From the NCBI GenBank assembly GCA_011056555.1, contig DSEQ01000047.1:62001-126000 (forward strand): a DNA stretch of 64,000 bases, in the 5' to 3' direction. Positions 49,478 through 59,644 of the stretch are shown piece by piece; within the stretch, counting starts at the first letter, position 1; every line of letters begins with the position of its first letter. The notes below the pieces were generated by a model that worked only from the letters and a program-made list of their open reading frames with translations, had not been told where the DNA came from and did no database searches. This DNA is from Candidatus Zixiibacteriota bacterium (lineage in GTDB: Bacteria; Zixibacteria; MSB-5A5; JAABVY01). Made by a program: the position numbers and the translations under genes.

Positions 49478-51499
49478 TCAGTATGCAAGGCAAGGCGGAG
49501 GCTGACCGCCGACAAATACAAAATTGATTATAAACACAGCATCCGACACATTTATATTATCGTCACAATTTGCGTCACCCTGATATAATTCCGGCCGGGG
49601 AGGCTCTCCCCCGACAAATGTAAAATTGATGATCCAGACCGCATCGCTGACGTTGATAGTACCGTCATTATTGGAATCGCCATTGAATCTGACAATATAC
49701 ATGGGCAGGGAATCTACACCAAAGGCGACGCTGTCTTTATGAGAGGTCGCAGTGAGAATGATGTTATTAACTGTTCCCGGCAGGAGATCGGGCCCGGAGA
49801 GAATGTCAGCCGCGACCATAACAGAATCTTTAACTGGAATTGTGAAAAGGGTGTCATGAAGCTGGCAGTCCCATCCCATTTCATCACTGATAGTCATGTG
49901 ATAGATGTCCTGGTTCGAGCCGCGGTTGTAGACCCAGAAATTGACTGTCCTGGGGCCCATGGAATATATATCATACGGCCCCGCGTCCCTCACATCCGCA
50001 GCGTAATCCGGCCAGGGAAGCAGCTGGGCGGAATAGACATAATCTAGACCCTCCCCATACCAGGATCTTACAACCGGATTCAATATTATATAGTCATAGT
50101 TTTCAATCTCGGATACTATCAATGATCCGGCGTAAGCTTCGTTTAATGGGATTTCCATAAACGTGTAGTTGTTGTCCGGCTCTGCCAGAATAACATTCGC
50201 ACTCCAGTGATAGCCGTCCTGGCCATCAAAGTGTATCAGGAATTCTCCGATTACATCTCCAAATTCAGCAAACTTAATATAGTTCGCTCCCAACCCGTGC
50301 GGACGCATGGCAGAAGGAGGATGCATATTGCTGACCGGGTAGAATGAAATAGTCCCGATCAGATCGACTGTCTCAGGATAATCCCATCCCTGTTCGTAAT
50401 GGTTACCATCATCATATATGGAGGTGCACCAGTTCCAGGCGGCAAATTCCCCGAAGGCATCATAGAGATTAGAGCCATAGCCCAGCAAGGCTGTGTTAAT
50501 GGCGGTATAAACATCATCATTATATATCAGGTTTTCCCAGATGCTTTTAATCAGCGTTGTATCGAAGTTATGATCCAGGAATCGGTTCCAGACAAAGGCT
50601 CCGTAATCATGGTAGTAAGAGCTGTCATTTAATGGCAGTTGTGGATAGTCGAAGAAACACCAGAGATAGTTGTAATTGTCATTGACCTGGGGATAGCAGA
50701 TTTCCTCCATCCAGCAGGAGGAGACCTCCATATACCAGACCTCGCTCAAGAGATTGTAAGCCATCTGAGTCGCGTGGAAGTATTCATGCGCACAGGTGAC
50801 CTTTGCGGCGCCCTTCTCGAGCCCCTCCGGATCATCGTTGGGAGGGAAATCTATAAAGTTTCTGTGTACCACCATATAACTGATCCAGTCATCCCATGCC
50901 TCCGGCCCGGGGCTTTCGGGCTGAGTATAGCCATAATAGGGCATCTCCATAAGATAGATATCGTAAAGTGAATCACCGCCCTCGCTGCCGTCTGAGGGCG
51001 GATATAGGTAAGCTAAATTACCATGCATGCACCTGTATGAACTGTCACTGTAATGGGCGACGCAGTCCACATAATCGGGGATCCCGTTGAACGGATCGAC
51101 ATCGGATGAATCGACTGCATGAGCGCCCTCGATATTGTAGTGAATCCGGAAATACCCGTCGGGACTTAGGGCTGAAAAGACCATGTTCGGCCTTCCGAGA
51201 TAATTGTTGAGGATTTCCTGCTCCGGCCCGCTCAGTCGCTCCAAATTCAGTCTGGCCTCGATCATAATTTCTGTTGCTGATTTCAGCTTGACATCCGGCT
51301 CGAGCCTGAATTCCTCGGGCAATCTTTCGGGGGCGTGAACGGTCATGACCTTGTAGATAATCTTCTCTCCGAGACTGATCCGATTCTCGGCATAGGCAGT
51401 TTCGATCTTGTCAACCGGGGAGCTTTTTGCAGACAGGCTGGCAGCGACAAATAATATCGCGGCAGAAAAGATGAATATCTTAAAGATATTGCTTTTCAT
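49478..51499 (-). CDS. Secreted MXAN_6640-type putative metalloprotease with dockerin
   Basis: 673 residues. Signal peptide about 1-24. The central region has the zinc motif VTCAHEYFHATQMAYN (H218, E219, H222) followed by WYMEVSSCWMEE, which offers the downstream Glu of a gluzincin; this matches the MXAN_6640 family of putative metalloproteases. A beta-sandwich region follows (DVRDAGPYDIYSMGPRTVNF), then a two-part dockerin at the C-terminus (NGDSNNDGTINVSDAVWIIN, QGDANCDDNINVSDAVFIIN). It stands alone behind the kinase cluster with its own terminator. A natural client for the cohesin lipoprotein, by inference. Confidence 0.88.
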   Translation of the reverse strand: MKSNIFKIFIFSAAILFVAASLSAKSSPVDKIETAYAENRISLGEKIIYKVMTVHAPERLPEEFRLEPDVKLKSATEIMIEARLNLERLSGPEQEILNNYLGRPNMVFSALSPDGYFRIHYNIEGAHAVDSSDVDPFNGIPDYVDCVAHYSDSSYRCMHGNLAYLYPPSDGSEGGDSLYDIYLMEMPYYGYTQPESPGPEAWDDWISYMVVHRNFIDFPPNDDPEGLEKGAAKVTCAHEYFHATQMAYNLLSEVWYMEVSSCWMEEICYPQVNDNYNYLWCFFDYPQLPLNDSSYYHDYGAFVWNRFLDHNFDTTLIKSIWENLIYNDDVYTAINTALLGYGSNLYDAFGEFAAWNWCTSIYDDGNHYEQGWDYPETVDLIGTISFYPVSNMHPPSAMRPHGLGANYIKFAEFGDVIGEFLIHFDGQDGYHWSANVILAEPDNNYTFMEIPLNEAYAGSLIVSEIENYDYIILNPVVRSWYGEGLDYVYSAQLLPWPDYAADVRDAGPYDIYSMGPRTVNFWVYNRGSNQDIYHMTISDEMGWDCQLHDTLFTIPVKDSVMVAADILSGPDLLPGTVNNIILTATSHKDSVAFGVDSLPMYIVRFNGDSNNDGTINVSDAVWIINFTFVGGEPPRPELYQGDANCDDNINVSDAVFIINFVFVGGQPPPCLAY

Positions 51500-52832: not shown

Positions 52833-55800
52833 TCAGCAGTCCGGCTCTCCGTTGCCATCAGTATCGCAGGGAGCACTGCCACCCACGAAAACATAATTGA
52901 TAATCCATACCGCATCGCTGACATTAACAGTAGTATCACAGTTGGCATCTGCTGATGCCAGTGGGTCGGGCTGCGATCCTCCGACAAAGACATAATTAAT
53001 GATAGTGACCGCATCGCTGACATTGACAGACTGGTCGGAATTTGCATCGCCGCAAATATAGCCCGGATTAATCTGCATGCCCAGAAGCTTGGAGGTTTTA
53101 CTGCCGGTCTCATCCTGCACCTCGGCCCAGAATCCTTCCGGGCCCTCATTTAGCGGCACACCCGACAGCAGACCATCCTCTGAAAGGGTCAGGCCGCTGC
53201 CCTCAAGACTGCTGTATTTATCGCTCCATAATTTGTCACCGGTTCCGCCGGTACAGGTAAGCTGGTAGCTGTAGGCTTCGCCGACTTTGCCGTCAGGCAA
53301 TGTATCCTGGACGATTGTCAGACTCGGATTGACGGTGAATTCAAAGTCCTGCGTATCGTCCGCGCCAACGGCATCTGCGGCCCGTGCGGTAAAGTGTATT
53401 ATGCCGGCTGCGGATGGTACACCCGATATGATTCCTGTGGCAGAGAGTGTCAGACCGGTACCATCCAGATCAGAATTCACATCACTCCAGACCAGACTGC
53501 CGGTTCCTCCCGTGGCGCTGAGCTGCTGGGAATATGTTCGGCCCTGGGTCCAGTCCGGAAGAGTGTCCTCCTGAATTTGAACAACGGGATTGATTTCAAA
53601 GCTAAACTGTTTTTCATCAGTCTCACTGGCGGCATCGGTTACCATTGCGGTGAAGGTTATGGTGCCGGTCACAAACGGCAGTCCTGAAAGAAGGCCGCCG
53701 CTCGCCAGAGACAGACCGGTTCCCTCGAGATCATCATACTTATCGCTCCAGGTCAGCGCGCCGGTTCCGCCGGTCGCTTCCAGCTGCTCTGAATATAATA
53801 GTCCAAATGTCCAGTCGGGTAATGACAGAGTTACGATTTCGGGAACGATGCTCATGGGCGGGAACACTATCATGTCCACCCAGGCGCAATCGGAACCTGT
53901 GGATTGACTTCCGTCCTTAGTATAGGCCCATTTGAATGTGTGCATTCCGGGATCGACGCTGAAACTGACCTGTGCCCAGGGATCCTCCCCGGACCATTTC
54001 TGCTGCTCGACATCATCGATATAGAACCTCAAATAATCCCATCCTGATTCGGACGAAACCCTGTAGTAGAAACTGATCTCACCCCCCGAGAGCACTTCTG
54101 CCGAGAGCTCCATGGATGAGTTTTGATTATGTGTGATGGTCCCCGATTTTGCGGAATAGACGCCTTCATATACATTCGTGGTTACGGCCTGCCAGCTGGC
54201 GCTGCCGCCCATAACCCAGGGATACTGGGTGAAACCGCCGCTTTCGAAGTCCTCTATCTGCTGCCCGATCATCAGGTCGAAGAATATGCTGTCGGTGTAG
54301 CCGCCGTCGGCAGTAACATCCATCCTGAACGGCGCCAGGTAATTGATTGGACAGGAGGAATCGATATCGAACTGATACTGGCTGTTCGACTGCGCGGTCC
54401 CGCCCAATGCCGCGATGGTCGGATAGCTTGAGATTGACTGGGTGATTGTGATATAGGGATCATCCGATGAAAGAACACCGCTGGTGTTGTATGCTATGCC
54501 GGCCCCGTAGTTTATCAGTGTTATATTGGCCACGACATTATCACCCGGGTCAAGCGTGCCTCCGCTATGTGAGACATAATCGAGGAGAGGGATATTCGGC
54601 AGAGGAGTCATGGCAACATCAACACGGTTCGTCTGCAGATTGACTACAGTAATAGAATATATAGTATCGATATAATAGCCGGGGGCGGAGAATTCCAGGT
54701 CGTAGGTTCCGGCTTCAATCATACGATGGTAATCACCGACCTCCGGATCGGTATAGACCATGGAACTGTCCGTATCGCTGTCATGGCCGATTACCCTGAC
54801 CATAGCGTGCACCGGCAGACCGGTATTGGCGTCCGTGACAACACCGCGGATGCCATACAGGGCCTGCTCGAGCCAGTCCAATAATGATACTCTCAGGTAT
54901 CCCCACCAGGCCGGAAGCTGGCTGGCAGGGAGCAGCTTTGTGCTGGATATTTCCATGGTTACTTCGCGGCTGTCGTGGAAATAATTCATGTAATCCTGGC
55001 GCCCGCCGGAAATTGAATACCAGGCATAGCCATTCGTAATGCCATTGTTCAGGTCGGTCAAATAGCCCGAGGGGCTGTAGTATTGCGCTGAATCTGCAAA
55101 CTGCCTTGAGATATCGACATACCATTGATTGTCGGCATGAAGTGCAGCCCATGTATCCCAGGGATAATTTACGACTTCCGCGCCGCCGTGGAAGTTAGCG
55201 CCGATGACGAAGCTGTGGGCTTCCGCGAAATCCATCATGGCCTGGGTTTCAACCTGACGAGTGCCTCCGGGATAGGGGCCGTCCTCAGGATCGGGAAAAT
55301 TACGGTTCAGGTCGTAGCTATTGGCGTTGTAGCGCGTAGCCCCATAGACGGAGTTATCTCCGCCGGCATAAGTTCCATCCGGATTGGCGAGCGGATTAAT
55401 CCAGATTTCGCAGCTGTCCACCAGCCGCGTAATCAGTGAATCTGTACCATAGGCAGTCAGCAGAGAATCTGCCAGGCGGAGCATCAGCACATAGCCGGCG
55501 GTCTCGTCTCCATGGATGGTGGCGGAATACATCACCTCCGGCTCGTCTTCCTCAACCCCCACATTGTCGGATATCTCCAGAAACAGCAGCGCCCTTCCCT
55601 CAACCGTAGTACCGACATTATGCACCTGGCACAACGAAGGGTAATCCAGGGCAAATTGATTCATCATGGAGACATAGCCGGAGTAAGTCGGATATACATC
55701 CCATTCCAGAATATCGGCTTTATCTGAGGACATCTCGGGCTCGATCAAGGTTCCCGGATGCGGCAGGATTTCATAGCCATAGCCGTATTGCTCAAATTCG

Positions 55801-55994
55801 GCCAGTTCTTCTTGATTAGCATAGGCATAGACCGTCAGGCCCTCGACATTATCGATGGAAATCATGCGGGAAAGCTTTTCCAGCATTTCTTTAGAGTCGA
55901 TTTGAAATTTGAAATAGACCTCAGTAGATTTAGCCTGAATCGCCCCCAAAAGGAATAGTATTATAACTGGAATGATAATGTAAAGCTTTTTCAT
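52833..55994 (-). CDS. Secreted M14 zinc carboxypeptidase with He_PIG repeats and dockerin
   Basis: 1053 residues. Signal peptide about 1-21; propeptide to about 95; M14 catalytic domain about 100-375 with zinc ligands H161, E164 (ATIHGDETAGY) and H269 (GANFHGG), substrate motifs NPDGT and NRNFPDP, and catalytic E348 (REVTMEIS). Next come a carboxypeptidase regulatory-like domain (GIRGVVTDANTGLPVHAMVR), a beta region, three putative Ig (He_PIG) repeats with LPDWTxGxxYSxQLxATGGTG and a C-terminal two-part dockerin (ICGDANSDQSVNVSDAVTII, ADANCDTTVNVSDAVWIINY). It should cleave C-terminal residues of peptides outside the cell. Single gene. Confidence 0.93.
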   Translation of the reverse strand: MKKLYIIIPVIILFLLGAIQAKSTEVYFKFQIDSKEMLEKLSRMISIDNVEGLTVYAYANQEELAEFEQYGYGYEILPHPGTLIEPEMSSDKADILEWDVYPTYSGYVSMMNQFALDYPSLCQVHNVGTTVEGRALLFLEISDNVGVEEDEPEVMYSATIHGDETAGYVLMLRLADSLLTAYGTDSLITRLVDSCEIWINPLANPDGTYAGGDNSVYGATRYNANSYDLNRNFPDPEDGPYPGGTRQVETQAMMDFAEAHSFVIGANFHGGAEVVNYPWDTWAALHADNQWYVDISRQFADSAQYYSPSGYLTDLNNGITNGYAWYSISGGRQDYMNYFHDSREVTMEISSTKLLPASQLPAWWGYLRVSLLDWLEQALYGIRGVVTDANTGLPVHAMVRVIGHDSDTDSSMVYTDPEVGDYHRMIEAGTYDLEFSAPGYYIDTIYSITVVNLQTNRVDVAMTPLPNIPLLDYVSHSGGTLDPGDNVVANITLINYGAGIAYNTSGVLSSDDPYITITQSISSYPTIAALGGTAQSNSQYQFDIDSSCPINYLAPFRMDVTADGGYTDSIFFDLMIGQQIEDFESGGFTQYPWVMGGSASWQAVTTNVYEGVYSAKSGTITHNQNSSMELSAEVLSGGEISFYYRVSSESGWDYLRFYIDDVEQQKWSGEDPWAQVSFSVDPGMHTFKWAYTKDGSQSTGSDCAWVDMIVFPPMSIVPEIVTLSLPDWTFGLLYSEQLEATGGTGALTWSDKYDDLEGTGLSLASGGLLSGLPFVTGTITFTAMVTDAASETDEKQFSFEINPVVQIQEDTLPDWTQGRTYSQQLSATGGTGSLVWSDVNSDLDGTGLTLSATGIISGVPSAAGIIHFTARAADAVGADDTQDFEFTVNPSLTIVQDTLPDGKVGEAYSYQLTCTGGTGDKLWSDKYSSLEGSGLTLSEDGLLSGVPLNEGPEGFWAEVQDETGSKTSKLLGMQINPGYICGDANSDQSVNVSDAVTIINYVFVGGSQPDPLASADANCDTTVNVSDAVWIINYVFVGGSAPCDTDGNGEPDC

Positions 55995-56369: not shown

Positions 56370-56723
56370 TCAATCAGGGAGAGCGATAGCCAATGCGGTC
56401 AGGGCAATCGCGGCAAAAAATGACTGCAGTTGAATCTGCCTGGCCTTTTCCATCAGCATTTTCCTGAAACTTTCATCCTCGATCGGTTCCGGACCATCAT
56501 CCATATTTCTCGCACCCTGCGAAGCCAGCGCCACTCAGGTTTTCTCTTTGTATTGAAGGAACCCGATTGTGGCCATCATAAACGGTATGAACAGAAATAA
56601 CCTCCACCAGCGGCTCAAATCGACAGCGATCATAGTCAACAGCAGCAGGACCGTGATTACAAATGCGGCTATGCCGAATGCCAGGCGTTTGCGGCTTTCT
56701 TTCGGCCCGATATTGCGAACCAT
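56370..56723 (-). CDS. Small membrane protein, candidate selenoprotein (in-frame UGA)
   Basis: The track stops at a TGA (56535-56537), giving 62 residues. The frame continues for 54 codons to a TGA at 56370-56372, giving 117 residues with the internal UGA at codon 63: GFLQYKEKT-U-VALASQGARNMDDG. From memory, a DUF2892-like membrane family has Cys in a KTCV..A..G.RN context here; if so, UGA replaces that Cys. Downstream residues form a charged helix (IEDESFRKMLMEKARQIQLQ) and a third membrane helix. A hairpin UUCGCA-GGG-UGCGAG starts so that its loop is 17 nt after the UGA, fitting bacterial SECIS rules. GGGAG lies 9 nt before the ATG. A nonsense mutation or sequence error is the alternative. 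Confidence 0.65.
56509..56523 (-). promoter_or_regulatory. Candidate bacterial SECIS hairpin
   Basis: On the minus strand UUCGCA pairs with UGCGAG (5 Watson-Crick pairs and one U-G) around a GGG loop that begins 17 nt after the UGA at 56537-56535. Known bacterial SECIS elements have a G in the first loop positions and a loop 16-37 nt from the UGA. Confidence 0.5.
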
Positions 56724-56801
56724 TGCAGAAGACTCCCTCTTTTAACGAACAATAATCCAATTTAAGCGGATAAGAATCGATTTCAATATTAAAACATAAA
56801 C

Positions 56802-56837
56802 AAAAATGCTGAAGTCCCGGATTTCGGGACTCCAGCA
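56802..56837 (-). terminator. Terminator of the sigma/bactofilin/toast-rack operon
   Basis: TGCTGGAGTCCCG...CGGGACTTCAGCA forms a long stem with one mismatch, then TTTTT on the minus strand, 30 nt after the toast-rack stop. It separates that operon from the selenoprotein candidate. Confidence 0.82.
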
Positions 56838-56867
56838 CTCAGGCAAGGAAGTTGCAAAAAGTGATTA

Positions 56868-57731
56868 CTATAGACTTTCAGCTAACTCAAAGTCCACAGA
56901 ACCCATACTAATATCTATATCAAAGTCAAGATGCCCCTTTTTGGAATCATAATCTCTGGTCTGATAGACACCGTCTTTCACCTTCTCGAAATCATCCGGA
57001 ACTCCCACGCTCGAGGTCCAGTCCTCTGAATAGTGAATCTTCGTTCCCATATTATGATTGAGTTTGATATTGGTCGAACTCATTCCGGCATCGAGGGTGA
57101 CATTGCCGTCAAAGACCAGTTTTCCGGAAAAGTCCAGATCGAACGAGGCCATGCCGGCATCAATTTCAAGATTTTCGAAATTAGCGTTGCCGAAGCCATA
57201 GCACTCAAACGAGCTCTTGCCGGCATCTATGCTGAAATCCTTTATACGGCCTTTATTGGGTTGGTTAAATATTATGGTACCGGAAGCCATGCCGATATCC
57301 ATTTCGAGCCCGGTAATCTCCAGCCCGCTGAAATCGAAATCGGCCTCGCACATGCCGGCGTCAACAGCAAGATCCATTGGGACCATATCCCCCAACAGCA
57401 CCTCCCAGCTATTCTCTGATCCTTTGTTCGAGAAGGTAAACGATCTCTTCTTCTGCTCGATTTTCATTATAAGAGTTCCCACATCCCCCTCTTTTTGATA
57501 CTTGACGGTAACCTCAAACAGATCGGCATCATACTCGCCGTTGATCCTGGCGATATAGTTCCCGGTTCCCCGGGCGAGTTTAAGTTCCGCCATGCCGAAA
57601 TCCATCTCGACATTGAGAAATTTTTCGCCTTCAAAATCAATTGTCCTGGTGTAGACCTGGTTATCGGCGTCCGCCAGAAGGCCGGAGCTGAAGGCCAGAA
57701 TGGTTAATATTGTCACTGCAACTTTCCGCAT
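56868..57731 (-). CDS. Secreted toast-rack (LiaF-like) beta-helix protein
   Basis: 287 residues. Signal peptide MRKVAVTILTILAFSSGLLA. The body is a ladder of repeats LEMDIGMASGTI, LEIDAGMASFDLDFSG, VTLDAGMSSTNIKL and FDIDISMGSVDFEL, each predicted to be a beta-helix rung. This matches the toast-rack/LiaF-like C-terminal domain of stress-response and envelope proteins. It lies 95 nt after the bactofilin-like gene and is followed by a terminator, so it ends the operon with the ECF sigma factor. Probably an envelope stress or adhesion component; exact role unknown. Confidence 0.82.
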   Translation of the reverse strand: MRKVAVTILTILAFSSGLLADADNQVYTRTIDFEGEKFLNVEMDFGMAELKLARGTGNYIARINGEYDADLFEVTVKYQKEGDVGTLIMKIEQKKRSFTFSNKGSENSWEVLLGDMVPMDLAVDAGMCEADFDFSGLEITGLEMDIGMASGTIIFNQPNKGRIKDFSIDAGKSSFECYGFGNANFENLEIDAGMASFDLDFSGKLVFDGNVTLDAGMSSTNIKLNHNMGTKIHYSEDWTSSVGVPDDFEKVKDGVYQTRDYDSKKGHLDFDIDISMGSVDFELAESL

Positions 57732-57826
57732 AATCTCCCTCCATCGGTTGAGAAAATAGTCTGTAAATTTAATTTTATTTACGGCGGTACTATGGAAATG
57801 TTGCGGAAAATTGGGGGAGGATATTT

Positions 57827-59002
57827 TTAGCTGTCGATTTCGGGCTCAAGGACTTCAATTCCCGCGCTTTCTTTTTTCTCAAACCTCGGTTCAAGCCGGA
57901 CTTTTTTCGGACGGGTGCCGAAACGCGAAAAGAAGACACCGCCCAGGCCGGCGGTATACATGATAAACTGCTCGGACCAGAACAGGATCTGGAGGATCCA
58001 GGCCAGCGGCCAGATGTTAATAAAAGCGAAGAATGCGGAAAAAATAAGTGGGCTCCCGAGCAGAATTGCGCCGGCCAGCGTGGTACGGATATACCCGGGA
58101 TAACGCAGAGTAGAATGCTGTCCCAGTTGAAATCCAGCAAACTGGGTGAAGCCGATTGCGCCAATTATGAAAGCGGCGATAACGACGAATGGATAGACCA
58201 GGAGCGCCACCGGGATGCCGATGATGCTGATCAGGATCAAGACCCAGATCGGAAGCAGCGCAATAGTCAGGAGCACACCGATCAGGAAGCATTTGACGAA
58301 GCCCTCTTGAAGCTGTATGCGAATGCGTGCCACGGGCCGGGGCATGACTGCGGTCACGCTGGCCACGATCAAGAGGATGGCTGCCAGAGAAATGACCATC
58401 ACGATCATGGCGGGCGGCCCGACAAATTGCAGGTCGGCAAGATTAAGATTGATCCGTTCATAGCGCCCCTTGAAATCATAAACAGTCTCATCGACCGGAC
58501 GCTGAAATTCCATGGAGGAGATATTTCCCCAGACCATTGTGCCCGAATCGAGCACAACCTCGCCCAGGCATACAATTTCACCCTCCACATTGGCCCCGGG
58601 GCGTATCCTGATATCACCGAAAATCACGAATATGTCGCCTTTGACATATCCCCTGATCTCCAGGTCGCCGCCAAGTACGACCACTTCCCCTCTTACTGAA
58701 TCCGCAACATCGATCAATTCGTTCTTGCCGAATGTTATAATGTCGTTGCCTGCCGAAAAGACTTTGCCGCGGCCGTCTCTTTCCACCGCCCGCAGAATAA
58801 GTGTATCGCTGCCGTCATCATAGTTTATCTCGATGCGCTCCCTGGAAATGTCTATTTCCACGGCTTTGCGAAGTGTATCGGCCATGCCCAGTGAATCCGG
58901 CGCCAGCTCCTCCTCCTCATAGGCATAAACAGAGGGGCCCGACACCAGCATCAAAACAAGTGTCAGAAAGAGTATCTTTTTGAAGTTCCTGGCAATCATC
59001 AT
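57827..59002 (-). CDS. Bactofilin-like (polymer-forming) membrane protein
   Basis: 391 residues. Signal peptide about 1-27, then a short beta-helix domain (about 80-160) with VRGEVVVLGGDLEIRGYVKG, DIFVIFGDIRIRPGANVEGE and IVCLGEVVLDSGTMVWGNI, as in polymer-forming/bactofilin proteins. After residue 190 there are about four to five membrane helices (AMIVMVISLAAILLIVASVT, LLTIALLPIWVLILISIIGI) and a charged cytoplasmic tail. The gene follows the ECF sigma gene by 51 nt. The design (external beta-helix, then helices) recalls anti-sigma or envelope-sensing proteins, so it may regulate the sigma factor, but no anti-sigma motif is visible. Confidence 0.8.
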   Translation of the reverse strand: MMIARNFKKILFLTLVLMLVSGPSVYAYEEEELAPDSLGMADTLRKAVEIDISRERIEINYDDGSDTLILRAVERDGRGKVFSAGNDIITFGKNELIDVADSVRGEVVVLGGDLEIRGYVKGDIFVIFGDIRIRPGANVEGEIVCLGEVVLDSGTMVWGNISSMEFQRPVDETVYDFKGRYERINLNLADLQFVGPPAMIVMVISLAAILLIVASVTAVMPRPVARIRIQLQEGFVKCFLIGVLLTIALLPIWVLILISIIGIPVALLVYPFVVIAAFIIGAIGFTQFAGFQLGQHSTLRYPGYIRTTLAGAILLGSPLIFSAFFAFINIWPLAWILQILFWSEQFIMYTAGLGGVFFSRFGTRPKKVRLEPRFEKKESAGIEVLEPEIDS

Positions 59003-59053
59003 ATAATCCTGTACTAAAGCAAACGTATCGGCAGAGAGGATGTTTCTTCCGCT

Positions 59054-59644
59054 TCAGGCCATTTTCAGTTTCTTTTTCAGGAGCTCACGGGCGCGGAAAA
59101 TCCGGGCCTTAACAGTTCCAATCGGAATCCCCATTATACGTGCAATCTCTTCATACGATTTATCATCATGGTGACGGTAGATTATCACCTGTTTGTACTT
59201 CGGCGGGAGGCCCTCGATCGCCTCCTCGATTGAAATGAGCTTCTGTTTGCGAAGAAGATGCTCCTCCGGGTTGGCCCCCTTGTCCTCCAATTCAACCTCG
59301 ACCGCGCCGTTTTTAGTCTGATAAGGCTTATCCATGGAATAGGCCTTGATCTTCTTCTTACGCAGATAGTCGATCGAACAGTTGGCCGCAATCTTGCACA
59401 GCCAGGTGGAGAAACGGTATTCGGAACGATAGCTGTACAGCGTATTGAAGGCGCGCATAAAGGTCTCCTGAACCAGGTCCTGAGCATCATCGCTGTTTCG
59501 TATTATCTTCACGACAATGTGGAAAACAGTTTTCTGGTAACGATTCAAGAGGGCCTGATAAGCGTCCTGCTCACCGCTTAAAGCGCTCTGAATCAACTCT
59601 TCATCCGTTGGATGCTGTTCTTTTCTTTTTATCTTTCCCGGCAT
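59054..59644 (-). CDS. ECF RNA polymerase sigma factor
   Basis: 196 residues with sigma regions 2 and 4. Region 2: YQALLNRYQKTVFHIVVKII, DAQDLVQETFMRAFNTLYSY (region 2.2) and FSTWLCKIAANCSIDYLRKK. Region 4: IEGLPPKYKQVIIYRHHDDK and SYEEIARIMGIPIGTVKARI. It follows the RpoE-like ECF pattern and directs polymerase to envelope-response promoters. No separate anti-sigma gene of ZAS or RseA type is adjacent; the next two genes encode envelope proteins and may serve that role. Confidence 0.94.
   Translation of the reverse strand: MPGKIKRKEQHPTDEELIQSALSGEQDAYQALLNRYQKTVFHIVVKIIRNSDDAQDLVQETFMRAFNTLYSYRSEYRFSTWLCKIAANCSIDYLRKKKIKAYSMDKPYQTKNGAVEVELEDKGANPEEHLLRKQKLISIEEAIEGLPPKYKQVIIYRHHDDKSYEEIARIMGIPIGTVKARIFRARELLKKKLKMA

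Follow-up and report, generated by a model that had tools for sequence, protein, structure and literature searches.

Small membrane selenoproteins are known from animals, where SELENOK and SELENOS each have one membrane helix, a cytosolic selenocysteine (Sec) close to the C-terminus, and, in the 3'-UTR, a SECIS element of the eukaryotic type. Of the selenoproteins that are not thioredoxin-like, most carry UxxC/CxxU or metal-binding motifs. Bacterial selenoproteins with a bacterial-type SECIS element (bSECIS), such as SelD and FdhA, combine an in-frame UGA with a GG-loop hairpin about 17 nt downstream, exchange Sec for Cys, and occur in hosts with selA, selB, and tRNA-Sec. Most selenoproteins of known fold are thioredoxin-like, and the predicted families GOS_B (NF041374), GOS_C (NF045500), DG, DW, and DF are of unknown function (PMC13188914). 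Among other proteins, the YgaP-like membrane domain (PF11127, DUF2892) is a unit of about 66 amino acids with an N-x-G-x-x-(D/E)R-x-x-R motif, a helix hairpin, and, in the examples, a Cys after the second membrane helix (TM2). In YgaP this residue, Cys-159, sits where TMH2 ends and has been reported near the SCN− binding site (PMC4730233).

The locus described here lies on the minus strand of a 64,000-nucleotide stretch of Zixiibacteriota DNA, the whole of which we refer to as the window. It shares with SelD and FdhA all of the features listed above; unlike them, it encodes a three-helix membrane protein without a thioredoxin fold, a UxxC/CxxU motif, or a known enzyme domain. The product resembles SELENOK and SELENOS in being a small membrane protein with a cytosolic Sec, and no homology to them is claimed. 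We conclude, with a probability of about 95%, that the gene product is a small membrane selenoprotein, the UGA being read as Sec-63 by SelB and Sec-tRNA under the direction of the hairpin, although there are no expression, 75Se, or MS data. The elements of the gene are as follows.

56370..56723, minus strand: predicted selenoprotein gene, 117 amino acids with Sec-63 (from the frame, family alignments, and dN/dS)
56535..56537, minus strand: in-frame UGA, predicted selenocysteine 63 (Cys in 25 homologues)
56509..56524, minus strand: bSECIS-type hairpin with bulged U at 56523 and loop GGG at 56517-56515
56733..56740, minus strand: Shine-Dalgarno-like AGAGGGAG, 9 nt ahead of the ATG (read off the sequence)

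An earlier note on this DNA had proposed that a minus-strand frame crosses a TGA within the sequence KEKT-U-VALASQGARN and continues to a proper stop, and both points hold on the sequence. The ATG at 56723-56721 opens a run of 62 codons ahead of the TGA at 56537-56535, and 54 more codons lead to the final stop TGA at 56372-56370. The same note took UGA to be an ordinary stop elsewhere. This is correct, as TGA terminates 12 of the 39 long non-overlapping ORFs in the window, indicating that it is a normal stop and that the standard code applies.

According to the note, the family has a Cys just after the second membrane helix. Such a family exists, and 25 Cys homologues could be aligned. Unbiased protein and profile searches in two phyla returned 34 homologues, with TGA at the site in 30, Cys in four, and no other residue in any, so that the random residues that would have counted against the proposal were not seen. 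Ten Zixiibacteriota carriers emerged when 147 related genomes were searched without bias and 133 genomes of the phylum were searched with a profile; nine of them have TGA exactly at the site and one (G003) has TGT. In 298 Gemmatimonadota genomes, an unbiased profile search recovered 24 members that are nearly full-length, 21 with U and 3 with C. We further scanned about 85,000 species genomes with a DNA pattern of fixed spacing, which yielded 115 sequences (92 TGA and 23 Cys) from about 15 phylum-level groups, none with a further in-frame stop in the core. Because this pattern permits only TGA, TGC, or TGT at the site, its restriction to U and C holds by construction, and the claim of exclusivity rests on the unbiased searches. 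Sec outnumbers Cys by about 4:1 in the family. A maximum-likelihood tree computed with the site blanked requires at least 14 Sec/Cys changes, and its rows fall into 16 NCBI groups, indicating that the exchange has occurred repeatedly and that the family is old and broad.

These data bear on the possibility that the gene is decayed or misassembled, a Cys codon having mutated to a stop. Decay does occur in the family: one Zixiibacteriota homologue (L024 1501-1722, G040:C49) has three in-frame TGAs, at Trp, Sec, and Arg positions, and an early stop, and this copy is probably decaying in a genome that keeps selA and selB. For the window gene, however, such an explanation is scarcely tenable. The same TGA is found in two independently assembled congeners (L019 and L020) and about 100 other genomes, which makes a sequencing error not credible; 92 genomes of the pattern scan share it, and the UGA is conserved across phyla. 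Comparison of the window with the two congeners gave dN/dS values after the UGA of 0.12, 0.07, and 0.11, similar to those before it; residues are conserved through to the end of the protein in the family alignment, and the TGA-form-specific hairpin is retained. Judged by these substitution patterns, purifying selection acts on the codons after the UGA, and translation continues past it.

Continued translation could in principle be replaced by re-initiation, the UGA ending a 62-residue protein and the 54 downstream codons forming a second one that begins with GTG at codon 64. The window does have GTG directly after the UGA, and a 54-residue ORF is listed there. In other TGA forms, however, this codon is often GTC, GTA, or ATC, the Cys homologues are one continuous protein, and the structural model forms a single compact fold across the site. 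We therefore regard re-initiation as very unlikely and retain a single protein with Sec-63.

The earlier note had also pointed to a hairpin of the bacterial SECIS type, with a GGG loop 17 nt downstream of the UGA. The hairpin is present: the stem pairs 56522-56518 with 56514-56510, an additional C-G pair (56524/56509) lies beyond the bulged U, and the loop starts 17 nt past the UGA. Its anatomy is canonical (bulged U, stem CGCA/UGCG, and GGG loop), and the core GCAGG(G)UGC is common to this hairpin and the SECIS of the host selD, at the same distance from the UGA. Taken alone, the window copy is only marginally stable and not significant (z −0.58, rank 0.26) against synonymous recodings, which used each locus's own codon usage and held the protein constant. 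The family as a whole supports the claim. Every one of the 95 TGA sequences exceeded its recodings in stability (median z −1.90; Wilcoxon p about 1e-17), whereas the Cys forms (n = 25) were weaker (median z −1.19; Mann-Whitney p 7e-5 versus TGA forms), and six other positions in the same TGA-form genes gave median z values of −0.55 to +0.22. In all 74 non-redundant Sec forms the helix reached 5 bp or more, and it was nearly always centered on a conserved GG 18-20 nt after the UGA; among Cys forms only 13 of 22 had a helix this long, and Cys-form helices were shorter, with scattered centers. On this comparative evidence, which is decisive at the level of the family, we identify the hairpin as a bacterial-type SECIS element.

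The absence of selenocysteine machinery from the genome would have refuted the proposal, and all four components were found. On contig C1, tRNA-Sec (208970-209058, 76.1 bits; called SeC with anticodon tca by ARAGORN), selA (209148-210476, 539 bits), and selB (210504-212357, 368 bits) lie side by side as one cluster. The fourth, selD (L028, G000:C22:56349-57269, 363 bits), is of the selenocysteine type, with an in-frame TGA in its CAG-U motif. Judged by this gene content, the host decodes selenocysteine. The host selenophosphate synthetase is thus itself a selenoprotein (CAG-U-ASKLGAGAL), and its gene has a clear SECIS hairpin, GUGCAGGUGCAC.

In other hosts, we counted tRNA-Sec only at 65 bits or more, as weaker matches (33-54 bits) turn up in most genomes and probably reflect tRNA-Ser-like sequences. 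selA was present in 25 of 26 TGA hosts (outside the phylum) versus 15 of 23 Cys hosts (Fisher p 0.008); the single TGA host without it has selB, and eight of the 23 Cys hosts have none of selA, tRNA-Sec, and selB. tRNA-Sec was found in 35 of 40 further TGA hosts outside Zixiibacteriota, and four of the five gaps have selB. The Rokuibacteriota TGA host G225 yielded neither tRNA-Sec nor selB, selA being outside that check. In the Zixiibacteriota TGA host G024, listed as 100% complete, selA, selB, and tRNA-Sec were not found; its copy (L025, G024:C65) is a TGA form and apparently intact, and its congener G017 has selB, so that a lost contig and a recent loss are both possible. A same-family Zixiibacteriota genome, G003, has Cys at the site (L021, G003:C19) and a weak hairpin despite having selA and tRNA-Sec, possibly a recent Sec/Cys switch.

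AlphaFold2, run with a 63-sequence alignment, predicts one compact fold across the site (pLDDT 97.9, pTM 0.87), with helices at residues 7-33, 38-60, 64-68, and 84-114; residues 71-73 and 78-80 form a short pair of strands. The model has three membrane helices in all, and Sec-63 begins the short helix after TM2. From the model and the positive-inside rule, we infer that the N-terminus and the Sec loop after TM2 are cytosolic. Seven positions are invariant in 63 diverse members (Asn-4, Gly-6, Arg-13, Gln-57, Thr-62, Sec/Cys-63, and Asp-75). With this predicted topology they would share one face and resemble an active site, which suggests a single enzyme-like cluster at the cytosolic surface of the membrane. 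The window protein has no cysteine anywhere. About 40% of TGA forms have a Cys shortly before Asn-4, which in those proteins could serve as the partner of Sec.

No described family accommodates these proteins among the resources searched. Pfam and NCBIfam (June 2026) gave no convincing family match among the 63 diverse members, and the NCBIfam selenoprotein models, those of GOS_B, GOS_C, DG, DW, and DF included, were matched by neither the window protein nor any of the 63. The PDB gave no sequence match and, by Foldseek, no structural one (best E 2.9); there was no PHROG or plasmid match. Matches to TadE, CopD, FUSC, CrcB, and similar Pfam or NCBIfam entries were weak and confined to one to three members, and we rejected them. 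No family with these features is named among the 119 prokaryotic selenoprotein families of a 2026 catalogue (PMC13188914).

The family might nevertheless be known under another name, such as "hypothetical protein GOS_A" of a 2008 ocean survey. The reviews consulted give no domain, motif, or accession for GOS_A, so that no comparison excludes identity. That survey had 2 Sec sequences and 155 Cys homologues of it, however, a ratio opposite to that observed here, and the NCBIfam models of other listed "hypothetical" families do not match. We consider this identity very improbable. We think it probable that the family is undescribed in selenoprotein catalogues, extends over about a dozen bacterial phyla with Sec as the usual residue, and comprises a compact membrane enzyme of new fold, its Sec acting without a partner Cys amid invariant Asn, Arg, Gln, Thr, and Asp at the cytosolic face.

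The only relationship for which we obtained support is with PF11127, whose motif, helix hairpin, and Cys after TM2 resemble the present family. The selenoprotein family is longer (about 117 amino acids), mostly has Sec, and adds a β-hairpin and a third helix. The Pfam cut-off was not reached: the window protein was not called, and one member of the 63 scored at E 0.0014. When the family alignment (A2) was compared by hhalign with Zixiibacteriota PF11127 proteins, the probability was 83-85% (P 6e-6 at 85%), versus 0.2-15% for reversed and block-shuffled controls, and the similarity spans the N-terminal NxG..(D/E)R..R motif and both helices. As the Pfam cut-off is not met, the family is a possible distant relative of the YgaP-like/DUF2892 domain, not a member.

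This similarity raises the main alternative to a peroxidase or disulfide reductase, namely that the protein is a diverged, extended YgaP-like domain acting as a membrane sulfur or selenium relay, in which Sec would hold a sulfane sulfur, or bind an anion of the thiolate or thiocyanate type, where TM2 ends. The hhalign result and the position of YgaP Cys-159 near the SCN− site favor a relay. Against it, the confident alignment ends before the Sec/Cys itself, a second PF11127 subgroup gave only 2% and no score, the Pfam threshold is missed, and no rhodanese is fused or conserved nearby. A relay remains possible, though we hold it to be less likely than not. Of specific mechanisms, a redox step at the membrane interface, on a peroxide, disulfide, or persulfide, is the likeliest, which we infer only tentatively, the function being unproven and the odds somewhat against any single proposal of this kind. 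In such a step, the position of Sec-63 at a helix N-terminus would lower the selenolate pKa and make it reactive. The selenolate could then attack an oxidized or sulfane-sulfur substrate at the membrane, such as a peroxide attached to a lipid or a quinone, or else a disulfide or persulfide. Because the window protein has no Cys, the resulting selenenyl or selenosulfide intermediate would, by inference, be resolved by an external thiol.

The family is a Sec-dominant membrane protein common in uncultured phyla of soil, sediment, and groundwater; its carriers include Gemmatimonadota, Acidobacteriota, Rokuibacteriota, Myxococcota, Chloroflexota, and Zixiibacteriota. Cultivable carriers include a myxobacterium with a TGA form and Melghirimyces with the Cys form. 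Automatic annotation is expected to cut the protein at 62 residues or to overlook the gene. The family may account for the retention of Sec decoding in some lineages, and its small, well-predicted protein is a target in which new membrane selenium chemistry might be found.

Clustering of gene neighborhoods revealed nothing conserved across phyla, the neighbors being lineage-specific only. In the window, two elements upstream of the gene were identified by consensus scan only.

56804..56840, minus strand: putative intrinsic terminator, 16 pairs with a T-rich tail, separating the selenoprotein gene from its upstream neighbor
56759..56786, minus strand: possible sigma-70-type promoter TTGAAA-16-TAAATT, 9/12 matches, weak

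The predicted terminator, suggesting that the selenoprotein gene is on its own transcript, together with the weak promoter-like site, makes the gene look like a single-gene unit. Beyond this terminator-like hairpin, a row of minus-strand genes at 56868-59644 encodes an ECF sigma factor, a predicted membrane protein, and a toast_rack (DUF2154) protein. On the other side, at 52833-55994 and 49478-51499 of the minus strand, large secreted-type proteins end in paired dockerin-like NVSDAVxIINYVFVGG repeats, and one of them, an M14 zinc carboxypeptidase, has putative Ig repeats. The presence of such repeats on large secreted-type proteins suggests a cell-surface attachment system.
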